NCBI RefSeq assembly: GCF_019059575.1
Contig: NW_024883023.1
Coordinates: forward strand, 1 to 64,000
DNA from: Amphibalanus amphitrite
Lineage: Eukaryota; Arthropoda; Thecostraca; Balanomorpha; Balanidae
Length of the DNA: 64,000 nucleotides
Direction: 5' to 3'
Both the position numbers and the translations under genes were made by a program. The notes under the pieces are model-generated. The model made no database searches. It saw only the letters and a program-made list of their open reading frames with translations, and had not been told where the DNA came from. How positions within the stretch are numbered: the first letter of the stretch is position 1; every line of letters starts with the position of its first letter. Below are positions 5,646 to 60,700 of this stretch, in pieces.

Positions 5646-6801
5646 TTAACCCGCGCCCCGTAGGGCTACCGGCGGACCTTACCACCCGTAGGGGGCCGTT
5701 TCGGCCCCCCCCTAAGATCTCGGAAAGTTACCGGCCGATTTTCAAAATTCAAACAGAGTTCGATAGCCCCACCCGGGAACTACCTTGTGACCAAGTTTCA
5801 TTGACCTAGGTCAAACTGATGACGTCACAGGTCGGGTCAAATGTCAGATTTTCACCGTTCACAGGCACTTCAAGAAATGTGTTGTGAAATCGAGTAAATT
5901 GGTAATTCATTGAAAACCATCGATGGTACATTGTTCGTTAAACACATACTTTGCTATCTGAGGTCACTGATACCAGGTCAGGTCACAGCGAGGTCAGGTC
6001 ACCGGGGGTCACAATATGAGAGTGTCGTGTGATACATGTTTTATGGTTCATTTTACATGACAAATGCGATTATGTGGGTTAGGCAGCCTTTGGGGCCAGC
6101 CTAGGTCACGTTTTGGTTAAGGTCAGGTCAAGGTCAGGTCAAATTAGGTCAAATTTCAAAGTTGATATTTTTGCATAAAATGGGTATTGATTCGATGCAG
6201 CTCGTCACGAGGAGTCTAATGGTGGTCTTTGTTTTGCTCTACGAGGTCTAGAATTGCCAAAAATGGAGTTTGAAAATTTGACGTCATCATTTTTGAACAG
6301 TTTTTTTCGCTATAACTTGGCCAAAAAACGAGGTATCGATCTGAAATTTGGTATATAGATAGAAGACGGTAGGTACTATCACATATATTCCGGTTTTTCA
6401 AAAACTTTGTTGATTTTTTGGCTAATATATAAAAAAAATGCTTTTTTGATTTTGGGGGTCAAAACTCAAAAATTTCAAAAATCCGAGACAGCAGTTTTGT
6501 AGCCCTGTCAATTCTACACCTTCTATGTCTTGATCATTTTTCTGTATCTTCAAAGCTGTAGGCCTGATAGGTCTTCTCGCGAAGGTCTTTTTACGGTCAA
6601 AAATGACAGAACATGACGTCATTCTGACGTCATTTGTGGCCAACCTATCATAGCCTTTGGAAAAATTTTTAGTCACAACGTGTAAAATTGATGCCCGGAG
6701 GGGTCCTGAAAGTTTGGTGGTGATATCTTCAGCCGTTTAGGAGATATCGACCGAAAAGGATACGGGGGGCCGTTTCGGTCCCCCTACGGGGCGCGGGTTA
6801 A
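5646..6801. mobile_element. TTAA element with CCGTTTCGG hairpin ends
   Basis: TTAA at 5646 and 6798; ends CCCGCGCCCCGTAGGG / CCCTACGGGGCGCGGG. Both ends carry a G-run, CCGTTTCGG, C-run hairpin. The interior has AGGTCA arrays on the left, and CACATATATTCCGGTTTTTC at 6379-6398, shared with the 22.6, 29.3, 37.2 and 52.7 kb elements. TTAA target and CCC ends fit piggyBac (or Kolobok); no transposase seen. Confidence 0.85.
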
Positions 6802-7224
6802 CGCGATTTGATTAAATTCGGCGAATTCACTGGAAAATGGCGATAGGAAAACGGCTTTTTCTGCAGGTTCTGGGTGTCACAATCAGCTGGTTATTCCATA
6901 AATGGATTGGTGTTTTGAAAGAATATTGTTTAAAGATACAATTTTATTTGAATAAACAAAGATATTCAATTTTAGAATAATTCTTAGCAAAAATTGGAAA
7001 AACCATAAACAAAATAATAAAAATAATGACATTTTCAAACCACGGTGCTGCTTACATTTTTGGCGCGTCTGTTTCAATCCGCCATATTTGCCAATCACTG
7101 TTTGACCTTGGATTGTAACTCTGAGATTTACATAGAGCCGCCAGTGCATTGTGCACCGTGTGAGTGTAGGCCTTGTGTGGTTAAGAAACATTCTTATGCC
7201 TTATTTTTTCATTTGAATGCTAGG

Positions 7225-57700: not shown

Positions 57701-60700
57701 GCCCAACCGCAGCTGCCTCATGAACTTGATGATAGGTCTGAACCTCAGATTGGCCAGAGCTTGGCCGTCAATAACCAGCTTATTTACATCCACAGTTGTA
57801 GTGACTTAGGGTTTGGAATTTGCCAAACCTAAGTTTTGATTACCAAGAGAAGTTTTGCTTCTTGCACTTGCCTTTTCTTCATAACTTTGGCGGAAATCGT
57901 CGTAGTGAAACTTCAGTGTTCCGTTAGCTGTCGGTTCTTGAGAGAGTTGGCCAGGCCGGACACCGGGGGCGGCTCCACAACTTTCGAAAAATCAAACCTA
58001 AGTCCTATTGCACTGCATGGAGAGCAATTCATTTAACCCTCGCCCATGTAGGGGGGGGGGTTGGTGCAACCCCCCCCCCCCTGAGGTTTTTCGGAAATAG
58101 TGCAAAAACGGCGGCGCGCAGCGCCGCCAAATTTTGGGTACCTTATGGGGCAAACCTTGCGCATCTTTGGTAAAAAAATTTGACCGGGTCATGTCAGGTC
58201 ACGGAGTTATGACGTCACAAAGGGAACAGCCTCCGGCCGGATTTTCACAAACTGAGTGCCAACGCCCGAGGTTTCCTGCCGGTGGTACGGACATCGGTTG
58301 ATGGATCGTGATGAAACTTCCCATGCATGTTGGGGCAAGTATTGGCTATCATATGGTATAAGAAACTTGACCGGGTCAGGTCAGGTCACGGAGCTATGAC
58401 GTCACAAGAGGAACAGCGTCCGGTACTATTTTTGAAAAGCGCCCGAACCACTATTTTGCTAATTCTTGTCACCTCAATGGGAATATGCAGCAATATTAGC
58501 TTCTATAGGGAGCAACTGGACATCCCAAATCCAAAAATACAATCAGATTTCAAAAAATTAAATTTTGATTTTTCGAATTTCTGCCGCCGACTGTGACCTT
58601 GCCGACTTCCGGCGCTCCCAACGCGCCATTTTTAGAGCTAGGGAAACGAAATACATACCAAACGATAGAGAATTGATCAAGGAACACGATAGTGAAGGTT
58701 TCAAGTCGATATCTCCCACCGTTTTGCCGCAATCGCCGCGCAAAATTTCAAAAAGTCTATTTTTCCGAAAATTTGACCTTTGACCGGTCAAAAGTAGGTC
58801 AAATGTTGACCTAGGACCAAAAAATATACCACCAATCGCGAGATCTCGGCGAGAGCAATCCGTTGGTCTTTTCCGCTAAGCTCTACGACGCTCCGTTTTC
58901 AAACGCCAAGGGGGGGGGTCGCACCAACCCCCCCCCCCCTGCATGGGCGAAGGTGGCAGATCGCCGTTTACGGGCGAGGGTTAAAATCGCTCTTGTTCCC
59001 CCCCCCCCTCGACAACTTTGCAAACGTCTCTGCGCGATTTGGTTGAGAATAATGGCTTCGTTAGGCGGCACGGGCGGACATCGATAGCAGCGCCTCTATC
59101 GGTCACTAGGGAAAGCTGGGCTGTAGGCGACGATATACCGGCTGAGTTGTCACACGTTGAATAGGTTTATAGCCATCCGTCTTGTGAAAAAGTTGAACTT
59201 TTGCCTTTAATATTTCTACAGGCAATTTTAGAAGTATCTTCACATGGATTACAAAACCGTTTAGATTATTGTATTCACTTCAAGCCTTCCCTATTGTTCT
59301 TGATGATGCGGGAACTATTTATAATTAGTGTTTCTAGCTTAGTAAAAGAACATACTGTGCAAACGATGAAAAAAGCATAAATGGAAGATTTTAAATGCAA
59401 TTTTCTCTAACAATTAATGGTAAATTCTTTACATATCAAGGAAAAGGTGCATGCTAACTGATAATTTTAAGTTCTTGGGGCCAGTTGTTTTCTTCTTTTC
59501 TTACGTCGCCCCAATGGCCGCGAATACACTTGTGATAACGCCTATCGTATGGCAAGTTATTGAATCAGAACGTCGATCACTGCAGGTCATATATCGGCAA
59601 GCAATTCTTCATAACTAGACACTGCACAAATGGAAACGATACAGGTTTGCCCAGTGATAAACACTCGCACTGCACAGACGCGCGCACTCCCGACCGAACG
59701 CGGCACGGCACAGCGCAACTGGCGCCGGGAAGCCGGGAACGCATTAAGTGAAGGATTCACAGGTGCGCAACTTTATTGCGAACAATAAAAACCTAACGCA
59801 AACGATTAAAAAAAAAAGCTTTAGTGCAATCGGAAATACAAATGTATTGACTTATAGAAATAAAATTGTCATTCACCTTCCAAATAACCCAACAATTTAT
59901 TTGCCGTAAAAAGTGTCTGGAAATGGAAAGTTGCAAACATGATTCAGCAAGTAGGGAAACGCAGCAGCTACCTGGCGAATAATCTCAGGCTGGTTTAGTG
60001 ACGAGTGCATTGCTACGGCTTGTTCCTCACCCTTCACAGATTACTATGACAAAACTACCCCTAATATTTTGATCATCCTGAGCCTGGCTTTCACCTAATA
60101 ATTTGATGAGGGTCTTCCTCGTTTCGGATTGAGGCGAAAACAAACGTCAAACAACCTTGATAGTTAATTCAGCACTTCAAAACAAAGGTACACCTAGGGT
60201 ATCATTACAATACCGGATCATAACGATCTGGATAGTTATCAGCCTGTAAGCTAACTAAGCGGTAACTAGTCAAGTGGTAGGTACCGGAAGCATTGACAAC
60301 CTGGTGACTGTTTCGAGACCCTTGTTTTGACACATAGCTCGTCAATATTTTTTACAGTGTAGGCATGTTTTTAGATGAAAATAGATTCCACACCAGCTGA
60401 ATATAGTCTGAATAAGGCCCAACTGTGTGAGCAGTTTTGGCTCCAACCCTCCAGCTAACGACCTCTCCGTCAGTGGGCAGATTCCGTGCCCAGGTCACGT
60501 GGGCGATCGGTGGAGGCTTTCAGAGTATAAGTGAGCCGTTTAAAAGCCGTGGGAGGCCTTCATAAGAATGCATTAACGACACCATCGGTTCCTAAATGAT
60601 GGATTTGGAGAAAAAACGAACTTTTAATCCTGTACTCTAAGGGTGTCTGGGTTCGAGATAGCAAGTTCAGGTATGATGTAGGTAACGCTTTTTATCGCTT

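Follow-up and report, generated by a model that had tools for sequence, protein, structure and literature searches.

The transposon ends that most resemble those treated here belong to the piggyBac element of Trichoplusia ni (T. ni). As set out in the excerpts available from two accounts of that system (PMC7351741, PMC11707139), its left end (LE35) carries a 19-bp palindromic internal repeat at bp 17–33 and its right end holds the same internal repeat further in, RE63 being 28 bp longer than LE35 and containing an insertion together with a duplication of the repeat (PMC7351741). The C-terminal Cys-rich domains (CRD) of the transposase grip the palindrome as a dimer; structures of the enzyme are deposited as PDB 6x67/6x68, its catalytic Asp residues are D268, D346 and D447, and the authors of the structure call the asymmetric layout of left and right ends (LE/RE) 'puzzling' and 'enigmatic' (PMC7351741). 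Here we analyse a stretch of 64,000 nucleotides from Amphibalanus amphitrite (RefSeq assembly GCF_019059575.1, contig NW_024883023.1, positions 1–64,000; 'the window', part of contig C1526 in our numbering), in which a first-pass annotation, made from the letters alone, had noted a superfamily of TTAA-bounded, non-autonomous elements whose ends are built of a run of G, a short palindrome and a run of C. We consider it probable (about 0.86) that these form a large and diversified set of non-autonomous T. ni-type piggyBac elements, derived from autonomous piggyBac transposons of the same host.

Coral miniature inverted-repeat transposable elements (CMITEs), in the portion of PMC2872659 that is available, share with the present elements TTAA, CCC tips, and tips that are unlike across families around a conserved interior, as well as a tie to a piggyBac-like element and an occurrence in tandem copies. 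They differ in being about 100 bp long and in an estimated copy number of about 1600, and the same portion of that paper, which gives CC[C/T]T as the piggyBac terminal motif, describes no G/C-run palindromes. In piggyBat of Myotis, according to the excerpted text of PMC11707139, an imperfect palindrome to which a CRD dimer binds likewise lies behind a repeat at bp 11–16, but this palindrome occurs three times at one end and was not found at the other, and the CRD has another fold. The tips of Kolobok elements are two purines (RR), AG in ten full-length Xenopus copies (PMC6004289, in part). The listings obtained by searching the open-licence PMC literature contained no description of piggyBac ends with G/C runs.

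End architecture, target site and abundance

Tips were read in a sample of 264 kb, comprising the window and a further 20 10-kb stretches of its genome (L009–L028); ten of these stretches lie on contig C1 and were mostly picked near listed matches, which biases the sample, whilst the other ten (L019–L028, 100 kb) were picked blind from other contigs. With a hairpin tip defined as G≥4...C≥4 behind TTAACCC, within about 95 bp, a G-run/core/C-run palindrome was found behind the tip at 80 of the 106 TTAACCC sites, which makes the common architecture a firmer observation than the first-pass annotation had stated. The same palindrome search behind 13 control motifs gave 0/32, 0/8, 2/15, 3/24, 0/19, 1/20, 3/24, 4/27, 1/13, 0/18, 3/11, 0/21 and 1/39, several of these motifs differing from TTAACCC by one base and possibly including true degraded tips. 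The blind 100 kb alone contains 32 hairpin tips, clustered in five of the ten stretches.

The paired elements examined have one short and one long end. The short (S) end consists of a tip repeat, R, followed by the palindrome, and the long (D) end of R, a spacer, a second copy of the repeat (R′) 27–28 bp on, and then the palindrome. The G-run starts at bp 13–19 in S ends, mostly at 14 or 15, with the dyad at a median of bp 27.5, and at bp 37–46 in D ends, mostly at 41 or 42, with the dyad at a median of bp 56; among the 80 hairpin tips it never starts between these two ranges. A script assigned 38 of the 80 tips to S and the other 42 to D; L020:3058 and L025:9447, both scored as S, are in reality D ends that were misread because a nearer small G/C match was caught, and the tip at L015:7538 is atypical. 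R recurs as an exact 9-mer at 20 of the 106 sites, 16 times with a step of 27 and 4 times with a step of 28, and adjacent facing hairpin tips paired as S+D in 28 out of 28 pairs examined. The terminal motif is CCC with short inverted repeats, its fourth base being G, T or A, and 10–16 of 16 letters agree between the two tips in the pairs listed, from which pairs under 9 were left out by design. A block like GTTTTTCGCGAATATCTC (also TTTTTCGCGAATATCTC-like) often continues S ends, D ends carrying R′ instead; the earlier description of a TTTTTCGCGAATATCTC-like block after the hairpin therefore holds behind short ends and fails at long ones.

The order of the parts, the duplicated segment, the step of about 28 bp, the pairing of unlike ends and TTAA are all shared with LE35/RE63, as far as the excerpts depict them, and it is these asymmetric ends, with their palindromic repeat and 28-bp offset, that mark the elements as T. 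ni-type. By position and layout, the G/C hairpin is the known piggyBac palindromic internal repeat in a G/C-run version. The recurrence of the same layout, R′ and 27–28-bp step across many families of unlike letters, together with the uniform S+D pairing, supports the layout as a working requirement. The T. ni element as portrayed there differs in several respects: here the palindrome arms are a run of G and a run of C, enclosing a core specific to the family, R′ repeats the tip repeat itself, and non-autonomous copies number tens of thousands, with many end families. What is unusual in the present case is that the arms are G/C runs, together with how many end families and how many copies there are.

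Cores vary by family (TGTTTGAACA, CGGATATCCG, TAAATTTTA, TCGGATCCGA, CTATTTATAG, ACAGAATCTGT and others). In 44 distinct cores of 7–12 letters, shorter and longer ones being left out and related ones counted apart, 93 of 132 outer core pairs are complementary, compared with a mean of 37.5 after shuffling (maximum 56 in 5000 shuffles) and of 46.7 after swapping arms (maximum 68). The palindromic structure thus tends to be kept across families while the letters change.

When matches were found without requiring TTAA, it was present in 34 of 44 D-type matches and in 27 of 58 S-type matches. Of the 10 D-type matches without it 7 are internal (CGCG), and of the S-type matches without it about 18 are internal matches to R′. 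TTAA stands at both outer flanks in 33 of 45 tip-pair rows, some of which are cross-pairings of neighbours. The window itself has 32 TTAACCC/GGGTTAA sites. Pairing of TTAA flanks and of hairpin tips, combined with self-BLAST, gives a count of 18 near-complete elements in it, two of them split by insertions, and about 12 different tip sequences, against which the original count (fourteen copies or more, some ten families) proves conservative. Twelve of the 18 have TTAA on either side, in agreement with the target site first proposed, and the other six deviate at one or both flanks. A preference for insertion into a neighbour's TTAA was considered and dropped (4 shared TTAA against 1.7 expected, P 0.086, not significant).

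Across the 807.55-Mb assembly of the same genome, the plus strand holds 20,513 short-end sites (reversed-pattern control 0 and 1) and 23,193 long-end sites (control 2 and 1), in keeping with the suggestion of related, non-autonomous families of a very successful lineage; the minus-strand listings (80,444 short and 92,956 long) apparently hold several ends per tip and were left out of the counts. If the strands are alike, some 44,000 elements with intact strict ends would be present genome-wide, and the tip density of the blind sample leads to a rougher, higher copy estimate. Among 18 sampled elements (4 from the window), BLAST aligns many pairs of families in colinear pieces at about 65–92%, and frames from stop to stop reach 176 aa at most.

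An autonomous partner and conventional piggyBac elements

The genome contains 116 matches to PF13843, and 30 of these loci were sampled, 6 as a single stretch, 20 by both flanks and 4 by one flank. At C1173:156154–160130 lies an element that has a transposase gene as well as a hairpin at either end: the S tip at 156154 has a G12/core/C7 palindrome from bp 15, the D tip at 160130 has R, R′ and a G12/core/C12 palindrome from bp 42, and a leader of about 1.3 kb, with repeated copies of a segment, precedes the transposase, whose full-length protein-search match lies at 157487–159508 with the 3′ end of the gene towards the D end. In the leader of the autonomous element a segment around GGGTCAGGTCAGGTCACGGAGTTATGACGTCAT recurs in several direct copies that have diverged (L079, L081, L082, L047). 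Copies of the transposase at 95–98% are present on C171, C527, C42, C44, C512 and C1797, with a fragment on C474; relatives follow at 51–65% and then at 33–50%, and the transposases of C53:1120692 and C1201, which have conventional tips, stand at 27%.

The C171 homologue is a 674-aa open frame (PF13843, 6.1e-67), and its D tip is present with GTAA instead of TTAA (L080). The protein is alignable with T. ni piggyBac over the DDE core and the Cys-rich tail (6x67, 1.9e-76, residues 152–666) and has Asp at all three positions aligned with the catalytic Asp residues; judged by sequence, its C-terminal domain appears to be a Cys-rich domain of the T. ni cross-brace pattern, with the alignment to 6x67 extending through residue 593. 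The match to piggyBat is weaker (3.7e-29), a further point in which that element differs. The autonomous copy that the first-pass annotation had proposed to look for has accordingly been found for one family, and its transposase classifies as piggyBac; TTAA target, CCC tips and, for this one end type, a DDE_Tnp_1_7 transposase place the elements in the piggyBac superfamily.

The non-autonomous element L024:4502–5449 matches the autonomous one over its first 410 bp or so in pieces of 89, 99, 97 and 87%, and over its last 332 bp at 87%. In the window, element 58033–58984 resembles the C1173 interior in pieces of 80, 91 and 85% towards the S end and of 86% towards the D end but has different tips (the S tip piece matches at 68%), so that interiors can agree while tips differ. 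For the other window families no link to a transposase was found. C387 and C12 (1.726 Mb) were rejected as partners, since the hairpin end near the one and upstream of the other points away from the transposase and belongs to a neighbour; a D end downstream of the C12 gene is predicted from L060–L015 similarity (92%). C33, C257 and C431 carry equal-scoring transposase copies, 38% identical to the C171 protein, with a T. ni-type Cys-rich tail in L032 and, at C33, no TTAA in the 3.7 kb read; they could represent a domesticated gene or belong with another end family as its partner.

Conventional piggyBac families of the same genome have TTAA and CCC, with tips such as CCCATTAGTGCCCA, CCCATTAGCGCTCA, CCCAGGAACGCCCA, CCCAGATCTGCCCA and others. 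In four of them (L031, L034/L051, L066 and L070) one end has a palindrome centred on bp 24.5 and, since T. ni piggyBac has one as well (PMC7351741, PMC11707139, in the excerpts), the initial impression that a palindrome behind the terminus is foreign to piggyBac has to be given up. The conventional families differ from the hairpin elements in being without G/C runs and, in the 24 ends examined, without a second palindromic long end; the transposases of L029, L030, L031 and L034 share 19–23% identity with those of L032 and L033, from which they also differ in the Cys-rich tail. L029:173–2853, a conventional piggyBac with a 604-aa frame and tips CCCATTAGTGCCCA, is inserted at TTAA within a G/C-hairpin element of the L025:7087 family, and eleven rows of the PF13843 listing have a 604-aa frame with near-equal scores. 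C757 (L053, L054) has a piggyBac-like gene with a 768-aa frame, CCTC tips and a perfect 16-bp palindrome centred on bp 24.5, the element being inserted in a repeat context where L017 has a hairpin element.

Elements of the window

Fifteen of the 18 window elements are 0.76–1.5 kb long. Element 5646–6801 (minus strand; tip CCCGCGCCCCGTAGG) has its D end on the left, its S end on the right and TTAA on either side, and AGGTCA-rich stretches lie within it. Element 10847–12018 (plus; tip CCCGCGCCGGGCCGG) has its S end on the left, flanked by TTAT, and its D end on the right, flanked by a TTAA that is common to element 12015–12923 (plus; tip CCCTCGCCCGCACA), in which the left S end has a hairpin and the right end is degraded, with flank TTAG. 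A second copy of the 10847 family, 15991–18130 (plus; flanks ATAA and TTAA), one end of which reads TCC, is split by a nested element of the 18966 family at 16965–17910 (plus), with CTAA on either side. It is followed by 18127–18969 (minus; tip CCCTATTAGTGGCAGG; D left, S right) and by 18966–20009 (plus; tips CCCTCGCCGGCCGAGG at the S and CCCTCGCCGGACC at the D end), which is 97.9% identical to 48267–49308 (minus), so that some movement is probably recent.

Both ends of 22589–23785 (plus; tip CCCGCGCGGGGCTGG) have the core TAAATTTTA, and a copy of the same family (93%) at 29261–30432 (minus) has ATAA, not TTAA, on either side. Element 24498–26754 (plus; 2257 bp; tips CCCACGAGCCGCTGG and CCCGGCGGCCGCTGG) yielded nothing in a six-frame Pfam search at E values up to 0.05, and has a short relative at 55818–56576 (plus), in which a TA microsatellite at 56372–56529 occupies the expected place of the D-end palindrome. 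Element 42007–43203 (minus; tips CCCGCGCCCGGCTGG at the D and CCCGCGCCCTGCTGG at the S end) has the core TGTTTGAACA at both ends; its family is also represented by 31328–34601 (plus), split by insertions of about 2.1 kb, inside which extra D tips are present at 31928 and 32557 and a degraded tip at 31925. The remaining elements are 37171–38395 (minus; tip CCCGGCACCGCCTGG; D core TCGGATCCGA; flanks TTAA and TTAT), 38554–40039 (minus; tip CCCGCGCACCGACGG), in which the S palindrome is degraded and which has a repeat in common with 59050–59547, 52709–53894 (plus; tip CCCGCGCCCCACTGG; cores CTATTTATAG and CTATTCATAG) and 58033–58984 (plus), the element with a C1173-like interior.

No Pfam match was obtained in 24000–34650 up to E 0.01 with one frame per strand, and Rfam and tRNA scans of the window gave no match. 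At 7795–8797 a 338-bp inverted repeat (93.8%) surrounds tandem 16/48-bp repeats, with no visible link to the elements.

Competing explanations and significance

Under the reading that we prefer, internal deletion of autonomous piggyBac transposons would give rise to non-autonomous copies moved by their transposases. By analogy with T. ni piggyBac, R and R′ would be sites for the DNA-binding/catalytic part of the transposase, the G-run/core/C-run palindrome would act as a double-stranded CRD-dimer site for which extrusion is not required, and the S/D asymmetry would be needed for synapsis, as the excerpted accounts report for T. ni piggyBac, the two unlike ends being synapsed and then cut and pasted at TTAA. 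End sequence and CRD may co-diverge and so yield families with a common layout and different letters, and families without a known partner would presumably also have piggyBac partners.

A number of observations weigh against this account. A transposase partner was found for one end type only: of the 30 loci sampled, 15 bear conventional CCC tips at one or both sides and 1 bears CCTC tips, whilst for 12 the stretch read includes no end of their own; the G/C-palindrome D end is present at 2, in both cases that of the L024:4502–5449 family. The C1173 transposase match contains one in-frame stop, its gene is placed by protein-search coordinates with about 950 bp inside it not read directly, and the C171 stretch read ends before the S end. 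A strong palindrome at bp 24.5 is present in only 5 of the 24 conventional ends examined, a sixth (L029:2853) having an AT repeat alone there and the others lacking a strong palindrome at that place. Five elements have identical non-TTAA words at both flanks, namely ATAA (window 29261–30432), CTAA (nested window 16965–17910), TTAT (L025:76–1121), ATAT (L027:1679–2874) and CTAG (L011:8120–9029), suggesting that some insertions occurred at non-canonical targets. Run length varies among copies from 4 to 21 G and from 4 to 13 C, so that neither the length of the palindrome nor its distance from R is fixed, drift in run length after insertion being possible.

The variation in run length is also what would be expected if the G/C runs were by-products of homopolymer slippage, without function, the core and R alone being recognised, and the TA microsatellite in place of the palindrome in 55818–56576 fits such an origin. 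As a full explanation we find this doubtful, since many families, at 80 of 106 TTAACCC sites in all, keep the order of G-run then C-run, the runs begin mostly at bp 14–15 and 41–42, and slippage alone would not maintain the complementarity of the two sides, although it is likely to hold part of the truth. Core pairing across families with different letters (93/132 outer pairs, 44 cores) would in turn be accounted for if structure rather than sequence were kept, as it would be if the G/C hairpin worked in extruded form, as a single-stranded hairpin or a cruciform, in the manner of single-strand transposition or of hairpin-primed replication. A palindromic protein-dimer site gives the identical signature, however, and the 4-bp target words, inverted tips and piggyBac transposase are cut-and-paste traits, whilst the position of the palindrome equals that of the CRD dimer site in T. 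ni piggyBac as given in the excerpts; we regard extrusion as improbable.

The first-pass annotation had likened the ends to piggyBac or Kolobok, and of these the piggyBac half stands, on the CCC tips and the transposase. That the elements are instead Kolobok-superfamily MITEs moved by a Kolobok transposase would agree with their TTAA target sites, but the tips are CCC here as opposed to the RR/AG given for Kolobok in the available part of PMC6004289, and the transposase between such ends is, in the one family, piggyBac, no search for Kolobok transposases having been made; we hold this affiliation to be very improbable indeed.

Within the piggyBac reading, we tentatively raise the idea, which we do not favour as it stands, of a clade whose CRD reads a palindrome of G-run, small swappable core and C-run. 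In such a clade, recognition of the homopolymer arms might go by DNA shape (A-like G-tracts, bend), or changes in their length might be tolerated. If such a CRD exists, new core/CRD pairs would arise easily, and one layout could radiate into dozens of independent end families and tens of thousands of copies. The presence in one genome of many natural end and palindrome variants, together with transposase relatives at 33–65% identity, offers material for learning how ends and CRDs change together and for orthogonal piggyBac tools.

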